Of a stretch of 64,000 nucleotides of DNA, positions 1,486 through 21,330 are shown in pieces. The stretch is from Actinomycetota bacterium. GTDB lineage: Bacteria > Actinomycetota > Thermoleophilia > BMS3ABIN01. The notes under the pieces were generated by a model. That model saw only the letters and a list, made by a program, of their open reading frames with translations. It did no database searches and was not told the origin of the DNA. The stretch is from NCBI GenBank assembly GCA_023382335.1, contig JAMCPM010000006.1:320372-384371 (forward strand). Direction: 5' to 3'. The position numbers were made by a program, and so were the translations under genes. The first letter of the stretch is position 1, and every line of letters begins with the position of its first letter.

Positions 1486-2459
1486 TTCATCTTCCTTCCG
1501 GTAAGGTTGCGTTTGTTTACTTGAGTCAGTGATATTAATGTGGTCGAGAAAAGGCCGGCAGCCAGCCATCCCGTGTCTTTCCAGGTATCGCCCCAGATCA
1601 GTGATAACGGTTGTCTGTCATAGATCTCCTTGACCCCCAGGAAGGCGAAGCTCGCCCGCTCAAAGTGCTTGCTAATCGAGCTTTCCTCAAGGAAGTTGCG
1701 GGCGGTCTCGTAGCCGCTGAAATGCGCCATAACGTCCTGTTCGTGGGATCTATCGACCTGCAGACTCGCAAAGAGGCCTCCGGGCACCTGGTTGTCGGGG
1801 TCCATGGTGTCACCTATCTGCGGAATGATGAGAACGACAACAAGCCAGAGGACAAAACATGCCATCAGTGATATCCCCGGCTGGCGCATCACGGCCGTGA
1901 GACCCAGCGCCAGCATGCTCCAGATCATCAAATAAACCCAGGCGTCCGCCATGCTGAGGCTCAGTTTGACAAGCTCGGAAGAAGATAATGAGGCGGCGCC
2001 CACGAATCTCACGGTGAACATTATGATGATCTGCAGGCAGGCGATAGCGATCAGCCAGACAATAGCGAGCGCGGCGATCTTTCCCGCAGCCACATCCAGA
2101 GCTCCGATCGGCCTGCTGAAAAGAAGGCGCAACGTGCCGCGATGCTTTTCCTTGGCAAGCAGGCCGTAACCAATGACGATGGCCAGCACGGCACCGATTA
2201 TTTGCAGGTATTCGAAACTGCCGCGCAGCAGCTGCAATGCGGACAGCGATGGCGGCGCCTGCGCGGGCACTCCGCCGCTCTGGCGCAGGGCTTCCACGTA
2301 ATGATTGTAATCATCAATTCGTGAGTGATAGTCGAGCGAAGCGATGACGAGCGATATCGTGACCGCCAGCGCCAGGACAGCGCAGAGCAAGAGGAAATAT
2401 CTGCTTGACAGGATATCCTTCAGCTCCTTTCGAAGGATTGTCAGTGACGCCCTACTCAT
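1482..2459 (-). CDS. ABC-2 type transporter permease
   Basis: 325 residues with six likely membrane segments: one near residues 20-42, a block at about 85-245, and one close to the C-terminus. The motif KEKHRGTLRLLFSRP after the second segment is typical of ABC-2 permeases of the NosY/DUF3526 type. The large loop between the first two segments is extracellular and may bind substrate. The start overlaps the stop of the preceding permease (2452-3384) by 8 bp, so the two are translationally coupled and probably form a heterodimer with the ATPase at 3381. Substrate is not determinable. Confidence 0.85.
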   Translation of the reverse strand: MSRASLTILRKELKDILSSRYFLLLCAVLALAVTISLVIASLDYHSRIDDYNHYVEALRQSGGVPAQAPPSLSALQLLRGSFEYLQIIGAVLAIVIGYGLLAKEKHRGTLRLLFSRPIGALDVAAGKIAALAIVWLIAIACLQIIIMFTVRFVGAASLSSSELVKLSLSMADAWVYLMIWSMLALGLTAVMRQPGISLMACFVLWLVVVLIIPQIGDTMDPDNQVPGGLFASLQVDRSHEQDVMAHFSGYETARNFLEESSISKHFERASFAFLGVKEIYDRQPLSLIWGDTWKDTGWLAAGLFSTTLISLTQVNKRNLTGRKMK

Positions 2460-3384
2460 ATAGCGGCCTTCTCAGTGCATCTCGCTTCACCATATACAAC
2501 GCTGTAAGACAACCAAGCAAGCCGGCCGCCGCCAGCATGAACAGGTCCAGCCACGGCGAAGCCCCGCCACCGCCCAGGTGCAGGAGTGACGAGCTGAGGT
2601 CCTTGAAACGCTCTGTCAACGAAAGCGGCTTGAGGACGGTCCGGTTGATATCGAAGAAGCTTCCCGGAGCCGTCGGCTGTGCCGCAACCGGGTTGAGCAG
2701 AGCGACCGGGTGTTCGGCTGTTCCCAGTTGTGGCATCACGAAAGTTAGAATGACCCAGGCAAGCATGGGCGCAAGCAAAGCGCCAGACTCGCGCCTGCCC
2801 ACCGACCCACAGGCCAGCCCGATGCAGTTGAACGGCAGCAGGAACAGCCAAGCAAGCATCAGGAACCCTGCCAGTGAAAGCGTCTCTGCGGTGTCCAGAG
2901 CCCTGCCACTGATAAGCAGGATAGCCGCCCAGCTGATCACCCCCGCACAAGCGATTATCATAGCCATCAGAAATTGCATTCCCAACAGCTTTCCAATCAC
3001 ATATTGTCTGCCCCTCAACTGCCTGGAGAAGATCATGTCGATGACACCGGCCTTGCGGTCTGCAAGTCCCGACTGGACTCCCAGTACGATCGCCAGAAGC
3101 GTTCCGATCAGGACGACATAGATGACGGTATTCTTCATGAGCTCGAGGGGTTCCTGTGAGGAAAAGGGGTTCGGCGCCGAGGTTGCGCCTTCCCGCACGG
3201 TTTCGTTGTAGACATCCGTTACCGTTTGATGCGTAGCCCAGCCTATGAACCCCGACAGCAGCACCATTCCCACGAATATCACCAGCAGCAGCATCGCCAG
3301 ACGGTTGGTGCGAGCGAGTCGAAGCTCCTGAAAAGCAATCGCCAACACAGGATTTTTCCCTGAATGGGGATCACTTTTATTCAT
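2452..3384 (-). CDS. ABC-2 type transporter permease
   Basis: 310 residues, same architecture as the next gene: first membrane segment at about 30-50, an extracellular loop, a second segment near 90-110, then the cytoplasmic motif DRKAGVIDMIFSRQLRGRQY characteristic of ABC-2 permeases, followed by four more segments. Its start overlaps the stop of the ATPase gene (ATGA at 3381-3384). It is the first of two paralogous permeases, suggesting a heteromeric channel. Paired permeases of this kind occur in copper (NosFY), antimicrobial-peptide and lipoprotein-related exporters; nothing here decides among them. Confidence 0.85.
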   Translation of the reverse strand: MNKSDPHSGKNPVLAIAFQELRLARTNRLAMLLLVIFVGMVLLSGFIGWATHQTVTDVYNETVREGATSAPNPFSSQEPLELMKNTVIYVVLIGTLLAIVLGVQSGLADRKAGVIDMIFSRQLRGRQYVIGKLLGMQFLMAMIIACAGVISWAAILLISGRALDTAETLSLAGFLMLAWLFLLPFNCIGLACGSVGRRESGALLAPMLAWVILTFVMPQLGTAEHPVALLNPVAAQPTAPGSFFDINRTVLKPLSLTERFKDLSSSLLHLGGGGASPWLDLFMLAAAGLLGCLTALYMVKRDALRRPLYE

Positions 3385-4139
3385 CTGCGGCCGGAATCGA
3401 TGCGAAGATAGATATCCTCGAGGGAATTCTCCCCGGGGAAGGCTTTCATTGTGTCAACGAGTGAATCCTGGTACAACAGGCGCCCATCGCGAAGGATGCC
3501 GATACTCGTGCAGGTCTTGGTCACTTCCGAGAGCGAATGAGTGTTCATGAAGATGGTCATGCCCAGCTCGTGATTAAGGCTGATGATGATCTCCCGCAGA
3601 TTGATTACACCCTGGGGATCGAGGCCGGACGTCGGCTCGTCCAGGAACAACACCCTCGGCATGTGCATGATAGCCTGGGCGATTCCTGCCCGCTGGCGCA
3701 TCCCTTTGCTGAAAGTCTCGAGCCTCTTCTTTTCGTGCCCCGTGAACTCCAGGAATTCGAGCACGTCTCTGATCCGGCCTCCTGGCCTGGATAACCCTGA
3801 CAGCCGGGCAAAGTAGGAGAGGTTCTCCTCGAGGGTGAGCCGGTCGTAAAACTCTACATTCTCAGGAAGATAGCCGATGATGCTACGCACCTCCCTCCCC
3901 TGCCGCATTGTGTCGAAGCCGCATACTTCGACGGTTCCACTAGTGGGACTAAGCAGGGTCGTGATTATGCTTACAGCCGTGGTCTTCCCGGCTCCGTTGT
4001 GGCCGAGCAGGCCGAAGACCTCACCTTCGGCGATCGTCAGGTCAAGATCGATCAACGCCCGCTTCTCCCCATAGTTCTTGCAGGCTTTTTGTGTTTGAAT
4101 CACAGGCCTTCCATTCTTTTTCTCCCAGTCTCCATTCAT
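3381..4139 (-). CDS. ABC transporter ATP-binding protein
   Basis: 252 residues. Walker A is GHNGAGKT, the signature is FSKGMRQRAG, Walker B is VLFLDEPTSGLDP, and a switch His follows in NTHSLSE. This is the CcmA/NosF-like ATPase class that drives ABC-2 exporters. The start is ATG 4139 after TCTGGAGGATAAATAA. First gene of a four-gene operon: ATPase, two permeases, lipoprotein, each junction overlapping by 4 to 8 bases. The 100 bp upstream end in a terminator hairpin, so the operon has its own promoter, which I could not place. Confidence 0.92.
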   Translation of the reverse strand: MNGDWEKKNGRPVIQTQKACKNYGEKRALIDLDLTIAEGEVFGLLGHNGAGKTTAVSIITTLLSPTSGTVEVCGFDTMRQGREVRSIIGYLPENVEFYDRLTLEENLSYFARLSGLSRPGGRIRDVLEFLEFTGHEKKRLETFSKGMRQRAGIAQAIMHMPRVLFLDEPTSGLDPQGVINLREIIISLNHELGMTIFMNTHSLSEVTKTCTSIGILRDGRLLYQDSLVDTMKAFPGENSLEDIYLRIDSGRR

Positions 4140-12723: not shown

Positions 12724-12879
12724 TCAGTGATAATCTGTGATTTCAACATCGGCCGGTCCTGATTCGATCCATCTGAAACAGATACGATAATGATCATTTA
12801 TATGAATGCTGTGCTGACCCTTCCGGTCTTTCGACAAAGCTTCCAGCTTATTGCCGGGTGGTATCTTCAACTCTGGGAG
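12724..12879 (-). pseudogene. Truncated higB toxin remnant
   Basis: 51 residues from [18 protein letters not shown] to VEITDYH plus stop, closely matching the second half of the intact HigB at 16676-16969. The first half is missing. The remnant lies under the 3' end of the parE-like gene at 12848-13138, whose last residues are read out of frame from this higB DNA. Spacing to the higA remnant is preserved. Confidence 0.8.
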
Positions 12880-13138
12880 TATGCCAGAGCCTTAGCACGT
12901 AAATTGTGGAGGCCTGAATCTCATATCGCATTTCATAGCGGCCCACAAGAATCCGACGAACTTCACGCGGCTCGAACTCTTCCAATTTCTCACCAATGCC
13001 CGGATGTGTCAGCAAACCTTGAGGCGCCGCCGATAGGGCCTGTACCGCCTGTGCTGCTGCATGAATGTCCACCAGAGCCAGAAACTCATAAAGCCTTACC
13101 AGGTCGGAGAGGGCCTTACTCGTCCATTTGAGCTCCAT
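12848..13138 (-). CDS. ParE/RelE-superfamily toxin, orphan copy
   Basis: 96 residues, about 90 percent identical to the intact toxin at 17889-18164 up to YVLRLWH. It keeps the RelE/ParE fold features ([34 protein letters not shown]). The last ten residues ([10 protein letters not shown]) are unique because the reading frame runs into a higB fragment. The matching antitoxin gene upstream has lost its DNA-binding half. Start ATG 13138 overlaps the TGA of that remnant. It is either a toxin tolerated through the truncated antitoxin or the intact paralogous antitoxin at 18164, or inactive; sequence alone does not decide. Confidence 0.7.
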
Positions 13139-13239
13139 CAGCGCGGTGGCTTAAGCGGCTTTTCAGTGTCCAGACTGTCAGCCCAGGCCTGCACTGCCTG
13201 ATGGTCAAGACGCTTAGCCCAAAACGGGCCATTTAGCAT
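13138..13239 (-). pseudogene. 33-codon remnant of a ribbon-helix-helix antitoxin
   Basis: A short open frame beginning ATG 13239 whose last 22 residues (DHQAVQAWADSL, then TEKPLKPP) match the C-terminus of the RHH antitoxin at 18164-18424. The N-terminal DNA-binding domain is replaced by eleven unrelated residues. Stop and toxin start overlap as TGATGG on the shared strand. No clear ribosome site precedes the ATG. It could still encode the toxin-binding tail; most likely it is decay. Confidence 0.5.
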
Positions 13240-13303: not shown

Positions 13304-14842
13304 CTATGACGTTTTCTTTTCAGGACTCTTGCTTGCCTCTTTCAGTATTAACAAGATAAATTCCCCGAAAGGCAGGATCCCTTCGTCTAGCCGTGCCTTT
13401 GCCAATGCTTCAAAATATTCACCTCGCTGATCGTTCTTAATGGTCACCCATGAATAACCGGCAGAAAGCAAGAGATAATTCATCAACAGTCTTCCCGTCC
13501 TGCCGTTACCATCCAAATATGGATGAATGGTGACAAAGAAGTAATGCGCCAGGATCGCCCTTGCGACTGGATTTTTGATCTCACCTACAAGCTTGACGTA
13601 GTTTGCCATCAGTTCCGGCAGCTTTTCGTGAGAAGGCGGCGCGTAGCGCGTTCCCCTGATATAAACGGGCATATTTCGGTAAGCAGTCAGACTGTAGTAG
13701 TCGACTATGCCTGCGTCAGTAGAAGGCTTAAAGAGATTGGAGTAGGTGTCTTTTATGAAATCTTCAGTCATGTGGGGTTTTTCGAAATCTTTCTTCACCC
13801 CAGCCAAAATGAAATCGAATGCTTCTGAATATCCGACGATCGCCATCCGGTTCTTCAGCTTCTCAAGATGGTCAGCACCTTCGCCTTTTTCTTCCTTGGG
13901 AGCACGACCAGAAAGCAGCACATCTACGTCTTCCGGTGTAATTCTGTATCCCTCAAGGGATGTGGAATGATAAGTATCATAGTTCTTGTGTTCTCTGGCT
14001 TGCTTTAAGAGTTGACTAAGTGGTTGCTTTTTTATCCGGGCAATCTTCGACTTCAGGTGTTTGTTTAAGACGTCTTCAAATTCTTTTGCCTGCTGCTCCT
14101 GCCTGATGACCCATGGTGGAGACAACACGGCGGGTCTTTCAGGCGCAAACCTGGTTTCTTCTTTTTGTTTTTTGACAACCTGGTAATGCGTGTAGTCTTC
14201 AATTATTTTCTTCAGAGCTGTTGCCAAGTCCGGTCTATTGGCCTCCCGGGCTAACTCGATTAGCCGTTTGAATATAACCGGTTTGGGTCTGGTGGCATAT
14301 ATCGCCGCTAGCATCCTGCGGTCAAAATCAGTGCCGGCAATAAAACTGCTCACTTCCTTCAGCGGTAATTTATTGACATCGACCAGCACCAGTTCTGGAA
14401 CAGCGACCGGAATCTGCCGCCCAGCCATATCCTGCTTCCTGATCAATCGATCATCGAAGTGAGGATCGTACCTAAGCTCAATCTCAAAATCCAATGGCAG
14501 GGAAATTGATCGGTTGGTTTTATCTTTTGTCTTCACGGTCAGGCGTTTTTGAGCTGCCTGGTCCCCGACATATACCGAAAGGGCTGATTCTCCCCGTAGA
14601 GACCATTCGTGACTCGCAAGGATTTGTTCTATTGACTGCCAGTAAAGAAGCGGAAACGCTTCCTCGATTTCATCTTCGGGCTTCTTAAGGATCCAGCAAC
14701 CTCGGGACACCTTGAAGATCAGCCTACGTTTTCTGAGATAATCACGTTGCCTTTGGTCCGGGGTCTCTCCCGAAGAAACCACGTATTTATGTAGCTTTGT
14801 TTTTTCGGCCCACCATTTCATGGCCTTTTCCTGCAGAGTCAT
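13304..14842 (-). CDS. AbiEi-like antitoxin domain fused to Fic AMP-transferase
   Basis: 512 residues from ATG 14842 (GAGG ten bases upstream). The N-terminal ~220 residues resemble AbiEi-type antitoxins: a winged helix, RGCWILKKP, ESALSVY, and a conserved-looking LVLVDVNKLPLKEV to RMLAAIYATRPKP segment. After a linker comes a Fic domain with the catalytic motif HPYLDGNGRTGR at 440-451, complete for AMP or NMP transfer to a target hydroxyl. STSLEG at 293-298 fits the inhibitory motif (S/T)xxxE(G/N) just before the Fic core, so activity is probably autoinhibited. Four phased repeats precede the gene. Probably a self-regulating toxin/defence protein that represses its own promoter; targets unknown. 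Confidence 0.85.
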   Translation of the reverse strand: MTLQEKAMKWWAEKTKLHKYVVSSGETPDQRQRDYLRKRRLIFKVSRGCWILKKPEDEIEEAFPLLYWQSIEQILASHEWSLRGESALSVYVGDQAAQKRLTVKTKDKTNRSISLPLDFEIELRYDPHFDDRLIRKQDMAGRQIPVAVPELVLVDVNKLPLKEVSSFIAGTDFDRRMLAAIYATRPKPVIFKRLIELAREANRPDLATALKKIIEDYTHYQVVKKQKEETRFAPERPAVLSPPWVIRQEQQAKEFEDVLNKHLKSKIARIKKQPLSQLLKQAREHKNYDTYHSTSLEGYRITPEDVDVLLSGRAPKEEKGEGADHLEKLKNRMAIVGYSEAFDFILAGVKKDFEKPHMTEDFIKDTYSNLFKPSTDAGIVDYYSLTAYRNMPVYIRGTRYAPPSHEKLPELMANYVKLVGEIKNPVARAILAHYFFVTIHPYLDGNGRTGRLLMNYLLLSAGYSWVTIKNDQRGEYFEALAKARLDEGILPFGEFILLILKEASKSPEKKTS

Positions 14843-14856
14843 TTCAAATATTCCTC

Positions 14857-14952
14857 AGCGAATAAAATTCAACATTTTATAGCGGAAAATGTTCAATATT
14901 TCTTAGCGGTAACTATACAATAATCTATAGCGAGAAAAAACATTTGCATGCA
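14857..14952. repeat. Four 24-bp tandem repeats in the fic promoter
   Basis: AGCG occurs at 14857, 14881, 14905 and 14929, exactly 24 bp apart. Each is followed by an A/T-rich block; the first three copies share a TTCAAyATTT or AyACAATAAT core about 11 bases after the AGCG. A weaker fifth half-copy (ATTTCAAATATT) reaches to the start codon of the fic gene at 14842. Spacing near 2.3 helical turns places successive copies at a constant angular step. Likely operator for the protein's own N-terminal winged helix. Nothing else is seen in 14953-15096 apart from an isolated TATAAT at 14990-14995. Confidence 0.75.
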
Positions 14953-15096
14953 AGGTTTTCTCTGTGGAAAGATGAAAAGAGGGAGTTCCTATAATAATGG
15001 AGCGATCGGTCTAAAAATATAGGAATAGCAACCGACTTATAGGGCGTAAACCGGATTGTGGAAAAAGAGCCACTTTGCGGGTAATTTGTGCTTTAA

Positions 15097-16350: not shown

Positions 16351-16659
16351 CTAGGTGCCTGTACGCAGCGGTCGGATAGACCCGATCTCTTTAGCCTCGT
16401 TCCGCCTCGCTTTATACAGATCCCAGCGAATCTGGAGATTCATCCAGAAATCCTCAGTCATGCCAAAGAACCTGGCGAGGCGCAGAGCGGTACTGGGAGT
16501 CACCCCCCGGCGCTGGTTGACTATCTCGTTTACGCGCTGATAGGGAACATGGATGGCTGTGGCCAGATCCCTTTGGCTGATACCCATAGGCACGAGGAAT
16601 TCTTCCAGCAACATTTCACCGGGATGCGTCGGCTCTCTATGTGTGGGGATCCTCACCAT
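16351..16659 (-). CDS. higA: HigA-family antitoxin (XRE HTH)
   Basis: 102 residues. The hallmark N-terminus HPGEMLLEEFLVPMGISQ is followed by an HTH (RDLATAIHVPYQRVNEIVNQRRGVT) and TEDFWMNLQIRWDLYKA, all standard for HigA/VapI antitoxins. It binds and neutralises HigB and represses the operon. Start ATG 16659 follows AAAGGAAAC. It is encoded after the toxin with a 16-bp gap, the usual inverted order for higBA. A truncated duplicate lies at 12556-12711. Confidence 0.95.
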   Translation of the reverse strand: MVRIPTHREPTHPGEMLLEEFLVPMGISQRDLATAIHVPYQRVNEIVNQRRGVTPSTALRLARFFGMTEDFWMNLQIRWDLYKARRNEAKEIGSIRPLRTGT

Positions 16660-16675
16660 GATTGTTTCCTTTCAG

Positions 16676-16969
16676 TCAATGATAATCTGTTATTTCGACG
16701 CCGACCGGCCCCGATTCAGTCCATTTGAAACAGACTCGGTACTGATCGTTAATATGAATGCCGTGCTGACCTCTTCGGTCTTTCGTCAAAGCTTCAAGCT
16801 TATTTCCGGTTGGTATCTTCAACTCTGGGAGAATCCGAACCGAATCCAGCTGATCGAGCTTTCTCACGGCAATTTTCCAGAGCAGCCTCGGACAGAGTTT
16901 TCGGGCCTCTTTCGTGTTCCTGCCGTTAAAGACGTCTTCCGTGCCCCTGTTTTTGAAGGACCGGATCAC
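16676..16969 (-). CDS. higB: HigB-family mRNA-interferase toxin
   Basis: 97 residues from a GTG. Typical HigB: MIRSFKNRGTEDVF at the N-terminus, [13 protein letters not shown] in the middle, GQHGIHINDQYRVCFKW and VEITDYH at the end. Ribosome-dependent RNase of the RelE superfamily. It precedes higA in one operon. A fragment containing only its second half is found at 12724-12879, with several substitutions, so the two copies have diverged for some time. Confidence 0.95.
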   Translation of the reverse strand: MIRSFKNRGTEDVFNGRNTKEARKLCPRLLWKIAVRKLDQLDSVRILPELKIPTGNKLEALTKDRRGQHGIHINDQYRVCFKWTESGPVGVEITDYH

Positions 16970-17257: not shown

Positions 17258-17839
17258 ATGCTATCGACTCTAATCACATCCAAGGCTCGCGTAGAGCTAA
17301 TCACCTGGTTTATTACTCATCCCGCTGAACGCTTCTATTACCGTCAGTTAATCGACATTCTGAACGCGAGCAAGCAATCGATTCAGAACGAATTGGCGCG
17401 ACTGGAAAGCGCGGGCTTGCTTTCCAGCCAGAAAGAAGGAAACATACGCTTTTTCTGGGTCAATCAGGATTTCATCCTGTATCCGGAAATCAAAAGTATG
17501 ATCCTTAAAACCGTCGGGGTCGGCGACGAGCTTCGGAAATCCCTTTCCAAGATCGGTGAAATTAAATCAGCGTTCATCTATGGATCGGTGGCAAACAACC
17601 GGGAGGATGCACGCTCTGACATCGATGTCATGGTGATCGGTGACGTCACGGTAGTCGCTGTCCATGAAGCCATCATGAAAGTCGAAAAGCATCTGGGACG
17701 GGAAGTCAACTACACGATTTTTAGCCCGGGCGAATGGAAGAAGAAGATGAATAACAAAACAGCATTCGTACGAGGCGTTGCCCGGGGTGAGAAAATATTC
17801 TTGATTGGAACCGAGGATGAGTTGCGGAAGAGTAGCTGA
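17258..17839 (+). CDS. Winged-helix protein with MNT-type nucleotidyltransferase domain
   Basis: 193 residues. Residues 1-75 form a winged helix (RFYYRQLIDILNASKQSIQNE as HTH). Residues about 95-170 are a minimal nucleotidyltransferase: YGSVANNREDARSDIDVMVIG supplies the GS motif and the D-x-D metal ligands. Such proteins often pair with a HEPN-domain toxin as an MNT antitoxin; none follows here. A toxin of the ParE type is convergent. A C-terminal fragment of a homologue exists at 12422-12559. The first codon ATG 17258 has only a weak ribosome site. A mobile antitoxin-like role is inferred. Confidence 0.8.
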   Translation: MLSTLITSKARVELITWFITHPAERFYYRQLIDILNASKQSIQNELARLESAGLLSSQKEGNIRFFWVNQDFILYPEIKSMILKTVGVGDELRKSLSKIGEIKSAFIYGSVANNREDARSDIDVMVIGDVTVVAVHEAIMKVEKHLGREVNYTIFSPGEWKKKMNNKTAFVRGVARGEKIFLIGTEDELRKSS

Positions 17840-17888: not shown

Positions 17889-18164
17889 TTATCGCTCTTC
17901 CCGAGGGTGCCAAAGCCTCAACACGTAAATAATGGAAGCCTGAATCTCATATCGCATTTCATAGCGACCCACAAGAATACGGCGAACTTCGCGCGGCTCG
18001 AACTCTTCCAGTTTCTCACCAATGCGCGGATGTGTCAGCAAACCTCGTGACGCTGCAGATAGAGCCTGTACGGTTTGAGCAGCTGCTTGAATGTCCACCG
18101 GAGTCAGGAACTCATTAAGCCTGACCAAGTCGGAGAGGGCCTTGCTCGTCCATTTAAGCTCCAT
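17889..18164 (-). CDS. ParE/RelE-superfamily toxin
   Basis: 91 residues, with the compact ParE-type layout: [16 protein letters not shown] helix, a central acidic helix, then beta strands [17 protein letters not shown] and [13 protein letters not shown]. Its start overlaps the antitoxin stop (18164), so the pair is translationally coupled, antitoxin first. Cellular target (gyrase or ribosome) cannot be told from sequence. A nearly identical but partner-less copy is at 12848-13138. Confidence 0.9.
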   Translation of the reverse strand: MELKWTSKALSDLVRLNEFLTPVDIQAAAQTVQALSAASRGLLTHPRIGEKLEEFEPREVRRILVGRYEMRYEIQASIIYVLRLWHPREER

Positions 18165-18424
18165 CAGTGCGGGGGCTTAAGCGGCTTTTCAGTAGCCAGG
18201 CTGTCAGCCCAGGCCTGCACAGCCTGATGCTCGATTACACGACCGGCATCAACATCGGCCAGTGCCTCTCGCGTTAGTCTGCTTCGCTCTTCTTCCTGCT
18301 CAATCCAGGCGGAAAGGGCTTGCTTTACAACCCAGCCGCGCGAGCGCTCCAGACGGGCTGCTACCCGATCGACCTTTTCTGCCAGCGGCAGCGGCACATG
18401 AGCAGTTAACACCTTGGTTTTCAT
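18164..18424 (-). CDS. Ribbon-helix-helix antitoxin
   Basis: 86 residues. The N-terminus KVLTAHVPLPLAEKVDRVAA and RSRGWVVKQALSAW is a MetJ/Arc/CopG-type ribbon-helix-helix, with the strand residues T-A-H-V-P entering DNA. The C-terminal half, ending in QAWADSL and TEKPLKPP, should wrap the toxin. A T-rich upstream region with ATTAATAATGATT-like direct and inverted TTAAT words (18437-18480) is a plausible self-operator. Intact partner of the toxin at 17889. Confidence 0.9.
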   Translation of the reverse strand: MKTKVLTAHVPLPLAEKVDRVAARLERSRGWVVKQALSAWIEQEEERSRLTREALADVDAGRVIEHQAVQAWADSLATEKPLKPPH

Positions 18425-21261: not shown

Positions 21262-21330
21262 CTCGCCTGGCAGATGCGCACCTGGCAGATACTCGCCCGG
21301 CAGATACTCGCCCGGCAGATGCGCACCTGG
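21262..21330. repeat. 15-bp minisatellite at the hyuB translation start
   Basis: Four full units and a partial fifth of CTCGCCYGGCAGATR or CGCACCTGGCAGATR, 15 bp each, between the hyuA stop and hyuB start. On the coding strand each unit carries GGCGAG or GGTGCG; the last copy supplies the ribosome-binding GGCGAGGG. In the hyuB frame it would read repeated LPGE(Y) or LPGA(H). Confidence 0.85.

Follow-up and report, generated by a model that had tools for sequence, protein, structure and literature searches.

A 24-bp direct-repeat array with a period conserved across phyla as the probable autoregulatory operator of AbiEi-like/Fic fusion genes

Does the regular series of repeats in front of a Fic gene of an Actinomycetota bacterium serve as an operator, and is the N-terminal domain of the gene product the protein that reads it? 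In the window, i.e., the whole stretch of 64,000 nucleotides analysed here, AGCG recurs on the plus strand at 14857, 14881, 14905 and 14929, with steps of exactly 24 bp, as claimed in a reading made from the letters alone (hereafter the sequence-only reading). Both the recurrence and the spacing stood, while the repeat itself had to be redefined: the unit is a whole 24-mer, and AGCG is just its edge, seen as CGCT on the gene strand. The direct repeat has the consensus ~CGCTATAAAATATTGAACATTTTC on the gene strand, is present in ~3.8 copies, and is best conserved in CTATAnAnTATTGnAnA rather than in AGCG. The array extends to the ribosome-binding site and the start codon, so that a fourth, incomplete unit directly borders the ATG. 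The units below were delimited by self-comparison of the window.

14843 to 14932, minus strand: whole putative operator array, three full 24-bp direct repeats plus an 18-bp partial unit next to the start codon
14909 to 14932, minus strand: unit 1, CGCTATAGATTATTGTATAGTTAC, overlapping the predicted -10 element
14885 to 14908, minus strand: unit 2, CGCTAAGAAATATTGAACATTTTC
14861 to 14884, minus strand: unit 3, CGCTATAAAATGTTGAATTTTATT
14843 to 14860, minus strand: partial unit 4, CGCTGAGGAATATTTGAA, holding the ribosome-binding region and abutting the ATG at 14842

A chance match of AGCG was ruled out in three ways. Tandem Repeats Finder reported a period of 24 with 3.0 copies at 14867-14938 (score 72, the third-highest among 24 rows in the window), the self-comparison of the whole window at lags 15-40 placed 14836-14936 at lag 24 second after a coding repeat at 21262, and the array gave p=0.005, the smallest attainable value, against 200 dinucleotide shuffles at lags 12-45. 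No second copy of the 24-bp unit (<=3 mismatches) was found in the 2.45-Mb genome, and such confinement to a single locus fits the expectation for an operator that serves its own gene alone.

The gene that follows the array encodes a protein of two unlike halves, with the features below.

13304 to 14842, minus strand: AbiEi-like/Fic fusion gene, 512 aa
14198 to 14842, minus strand: N-terminal AbiEi-like region, residues 1-215, candidate winged-helix DNA binder (AlphaFold, Foldseek)
13949 to 13966, minus strand: class II Fic inhibitory motif STSLEG, residues 293-298
13469 to 13768, minus strand: Fic/DOC domain PF02661, residues 359-458
13490 to 13525, minus strand: active-site motif HPYLDGNGRTGR, residues 440-451

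The name AbiEi-Fic, given to this gene in the sequence-only reading, is clear for the Fic half (PF02661, E 3.2e-17) and holds at the level of the fold only for the AbiEi half. Both hallmarks of class II Fic proteins were identified, namely (i) the catalytic motif HPFx[D/E]GN[G/K]R / PF02661, here HPYLDGNGRTGR, and (ii) the inhibitory motif [S/T]xxxE[G/N] on the N-terminal side of the Fic core, which was also found in 33 of 34 homologues. The product is a predicted AMPylating enzyme, potentially toxic. For the N-terminal ~215 residues, no Pfam or NCBIfam model, including those of AbiEi, gave a match. AlphaFold modelled these residues alone with pLDDT 81 and pTM 0.71, and Foldseek placed the model closest, among PDB entries, to AbiEi of S. 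agalactiae (6y8q; E 1.9e-5, prob 1.00), with a TM-score of just 0.40/0.47. The full-length protein was modelled poorly (pLDDT 52); AbiEi and Rv2827c were the top two matches of the structure search with that model. We use 'AbiEi-like' for the predicted structure as a statement at the fold level, because the profile-profile comparison of the N-domain with AbiEi_4 by hhalign (0.9-2.3%) was not significant.

The array lies in the promoter region, as the sequence-only reading had placed it: it overlaps the predicted promoter and spans from the predicted -10 element to the start codon.

14948 to 14953, minus strand: predicted -35 element TTGCAT (TTGCAA in homologues)
14924 to 14929, minus strand: predicted -10 element TATAGA (TAAAAT in homologues), within unit 1

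Both elements are put forward as predictions from reading the sequence, because a sigma-70 consensus scan of the window copy returned no promoter above threshold; in the -35 region, a short insertion sets it apart from the homologues, and the -35/-10 spacing is poor. Close relatives have TTGCAA-N16-TAAAAT (N17 in L002) upstream of or overlapping the first unit, and the array and the best promoter candidate overlap at 30 of 35 AbiEi-Fic loci.

As a test fixed beforehand, the sequence-only reading had called for a search for phased repeats upstream of homologous genes. For the 200 bp upstream of each start, we took the best self-match lag within 12-45 and compared it with 200 dinucleotide shuffles. 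All 35 AbiEi-Fic loci of the first set had a direct array (best lag 24 in 27 and 23 in eight), and 34 reached p<=0.015 on their own, the exception being the weak array of L046 (p=0.07). A blind set picked afterwards, comprising two viral contigs and seven plasmids, gave lag 24 in nine out of nine (p=0.005 each), several of the nine being closely related to the first set, and brought the total to 44/44. The absence of phased repeats upstream of homologues, named as refuting in the sequence-only reading, was decisively contradicted. The signal was absent from Fic genes without the N-domain (0/12) and nearly so from flanking or coding segments (1/66) and from AbiEi_4 genes without Fic (1/29, the marginal L103 with lag 23 and p 0.02-0.05). 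Grouping the 34 proteins readable throughout by N-domain identity, with a cut-off of 60%, gave 18 clusters; were lags uniform over 34 values, the probability of 18 independent matches in two adjacent lags would be near 1e-22.

Homologues of the AbiEi-like/Fic protein were found in Actinomycetota, Alpha-, Beta- and Gammaproteobacteria, Bacteroidota and two viral contigs, at identities down to ~22%. Full-length homologues in genomes of the same family share 60-86% identity, and a tblastn search of plasmids recovered full-length ones at about 22-28%; the N-domain profiles of the two groups are homologous (hhalign 97.7%). Upstream regions of close homologues can be aligned, and in seven of them the columns CTATAnAnTnTTGnAnA are invariant at 24-bp steps, so that the recognised core appears not to be AGCG itself. 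The CGCT edge varies among the seven (CACT, TACT, ACTA and so on), more than the TATTGnAnA core, and AGCG was therefore rejected as the recognition core. The ~55%-identical homologues L030 and L031, as well as L044, L045 and L048 from the search of the phylum, have their own spelling with the spacing unchanged. Distant homologues carry direct arrays of 24 or 23 bp with quite different sequences, as in the examples listed here.

Pseudoalteromonas: ACATTAAAACCTATAAATGATATG, about six copies
Saccharobesus: AAAAGCTAATTTGCAATAACACT, 23 bp
Vibrio: GTAACTnAGAGTAATnTnnnTGC, 23 bp
Phyllobacterium, Acetobacter: AAAACTTGnnn
Shinella, Agrobacterium: AAAACGTGnnn
Rhizobium, Sinorhizobium: AAATTAGTGnnn

Operator similarity was correlated with N-domain identity (Mantel rho 0.46, p 0.001), and rho fell to 0.04 when the operator was reverse-complemented; common descent of the DNA may be a partial source of this correlation. 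Genome G013 has two AbiEi-Fic paralogues, L004 and L018, which are 60% identical and preceded by arrays (24 and 23 bp) that differ in their letters, and this suggests insulated self-recognition. In another homologue, that of M. huakuii (L112, 801-2338), the gene is split into two reading frames and the 24-bp array is intact. Genomes of the same family retain short Fic-gene remnants with the C-terminal part only (L007, L019), hinting at frequent loss of the gene. Scans of the viral and phage collections with the window family gave no matches, and the viral scan with the plasmid family found the two viral contigs. In one of these (L106, an IMG/VR contig with features at 216-1907 and 1971-3548), a 563-aa ORF resembling the large subunit of phage terminase is directly followed by an AbiEi-Fic gene that has a 24-bp array, and this arrangement suggests that phages or prophages carry the family.

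The orientation of the units separates these arrays from known AbiEi operators. Direct repeats outscored inverted repeats at 33 of the 35 AbiEi-Fic loci. In the published systems, AbiEi occupies 23 bp per monomer and represses its own promoter (PMC7319586, PMC3985639), the operator of S. agalactiae AbiEi being an inverted pair (PMC3985639) and that of Rv2827c a doubled inverted arrangement of 23-bp monomer sites (PMC7319586). We noticed the inverted geometry in AbiEi-only genes as well. Seven of the 12 tested (L075, L079, L081, L084, L088, L100 and L102) showed an inverted pair at the 1/21 limit, in the form of one ~46-54-bp inverted repeat directly preceding the start, for instance GGATAGATTTACCAGCAC...GCTGGTATATTTATCC. 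These AbiEi_4 genes have products of ~200 aa, and their repeats appear to extend the published AbiEi operator geometry to Actinomycetota. Set against these inverted ~23-bp sites, the Fic fusions seem to use the same site length in head-to-tail order. With 24 bp equal to 2.29 helical turns, neighbouring sites would be rotated by about 100-103 degrees and would not lie on one face of the helix; the regularity fits abutting protomers.

Taken together, we consider it very probable that the array is an autoregulatory operator along which AbiEi-Fic protomers line up head-to-tail, each taking up ~24 bp. The AbiEi-like N-domain would bind one unit as a protomer, and successive protomers would tile the DNA between the -10/-35 region and the start codon and block RNA polymerase. 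The protein would repress its own synthesis in this manner, and the potentially toxic AMPylating enzyme would be kept low. If the step is set by the protein footprint and by packing between protomers, it can be understood why the period is constant across phyla and the letters have drifted. There is good circumstantial evidence both for an operator function and for the N-domain as the binder: the overlap with the promoter, the uniqueness in the genome, the tracking of the fusion gene across phyla, and a step matching the 23-bp AbiEi site (PMC7319586). Binding by AbiEi-Fic itself, occupancy of neighbouring units, negative regulation and cooperativity of either sign are what we infer from these data, and the same applies to the labels 'cooperative' and 'sensitive switch' of the sequence-only reading. 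A positive sign of cooperativity should not be assumed, since AbiEi binds with positive cooperativity but its relative Rv2827c binds four sites with negative cooperativity (PMC7319586). It is attractive to speculate, albeit we regard it as unlikely, that AbiEi-Fic polymerises head-to-tail on the operator as a DNA-templated helical filament, the array being both a repressor site and a holding scaffold. The ~24-bp step with its residual twist of ~100 degrees would then set Fic-Fic contacts, and lost promoter occupancy would raise expression and switch AMPylation on.

Among the alternatives to autoregulatory tiling, the array may be bound by another regulator encoded by the host or by a mobile element, perhaps unlinked yet invariably present with these genes, with the Fic gene merely its target. 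The Fic protein itself is a candidate binder, and Fic genes often sit on mobile elements near other regulators (an HTH gene lies downstream in L072 and L113). However, no neighbour is common to all loci, nor was one found among the plasmid loci of AbiEi-Fic homologues, and the fusion gene is always there; the array is missing at Fic genes that have no N-domain, the unit is confined to one locus in the genome, and the period is as long as one AbiEi site (PMC7319586). On these grounds, another regulator is distinctly unlikely. We find it very improbable that the repeats work in the leader RNA, as a translational or attenuation element, instead of as DNA sites. Units past the -10 element would indeed be transcribed in the window and its close relatives, where they extend to the ribosome-binding site. 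However, the position at which the array ends ranges between -1 and -77, counted from the ATG, across homologues, which favours action at the DNA level. Many arrays lie well upstream and end at -41 to -77 (for instance, -184..-44 in L053, -198..-74 in L063 and -200..-75 in L071), overlapping or preceding the promoter, and what is conserved is the period, not an RNA structure.

Direct iterons of ~20 bp occur on plasmids, many homologues are plasmid-borne and one (L056) adjoins repA, yet a neutral array, made of replication iterons or of a tandem duplication that arose recently and travels with the gene, is extremely unlikely, as the window and its relatives lie on MAG contigs of chromosomal scale with no rep gene beside the array, the repeats are confined to the 5' end of the AbiEi-Fic gene, and one period with unrelated sequences in 18 clusters cannot be explained by a single duplication; chromosomal copies and the sequence-independent period likewise speak against plasmid iterons.

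Compared with the AbiEi operators of S. agalactiae abiE and M. tuberculosis Rv2827c, the present system has an N-domain that resembles AbiEi at the fold level, several putative ~23-bp monomer sites that overlap the promoter up to the start, and negative autoregulation, which is expected here. TAAAAT, the -10 element of the window's homologues, is also that of S. agalactiae AbiEi (PMC3985639, PMC7319586). In the published operators, the sites form inverted pairs separated by 3 or 13 bp, whereas here two to seven units follow head-to-tail at a fixed 23-24-bp step. Furthermore, the protein has a Fic domain at its C-terminal end and no AbiEii nucleotidyltransferase partner, the next gene on the strand at the window locus encoding a ParE toxin instead of AbiEii (DUF1814). 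Membership in the AbiE type IV toxin-antitoxin systems, with their inverted 23-bp repeats, was ruled out by the missing partner and by the operator geometry, as direct arrays prevail (33/35). CccR of Yersinia pseudotuberculosis binds as a dimer, through a C-terminal HTH, to a 10-bp palindrome split by 26 bp (PMC9755527). Both proteins join a Fic enzyme to a DNA-binding domain, a candidate one in AbiEi-Fic, and autorepression, known for CccR, is inferred for AbiEi-Fic; the candidate DNA binder is here N-terminal and AbiEi-like, the operator is a direct array, and neither a C-terminal HTH nor a palindromic operator was seen. SoFic is an anti-phage toxin (PMC12249575). The PADLOC SoFic model matches the Fic half (residues 284-505, E 5e-28), and the N-domain lies outside it; Fic genes that have no such N-domain showed no 24-bp array. 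Autorepression is known both for Fic-HTH proteins (CccR, PMC9755527) and for AbiEi, in neither case with direct arrays, and a search of the open-licence literature found no report of Fic with direct repeats or 24-bp arrays. The comparative support for a direct array at AbiEi-Fic genes appears unusually strong.

If autoregulatory tiling is correct, a large family of predicted AMPylating enzymes that spans several phyla, on plasmids, viral contigs and chromosomes, gains a common and directly testable control mechanism. The 23-24-bp direct array at the 5' end would provide a simple DNA signature that marks true family members and aids start-codon placement. The fixed spacing with drifting sequence, alongside sister AbiEi genes with an inverted pair, would represent one DNA-binding fold switching operator geometry, and the arrays form a natural series for studying the co-evolution of operator and reader.

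The stretch around the AbiEi-Fic gene of the window appears to be rich in small toxin-antitoxin genes. The ParE gene downstream (12848-13138, minus strand) is preceded by just the last ~22 codons of an antitoxin gene. An intact antitoxin-ParE pair is present at 17889-18424 (minus strand), and its DNA is ~88% identical over 330 bp to the copy at 12848-13210, which looks like a duplicated pair minus most of its antitoxin. Nearby are a toxin-antitoxin pair of the HigBA type and a nucleotidyltransferase that has a winged helix at its N-terminus (16351-16969, minus strand, and 17258-17839, plus strand).
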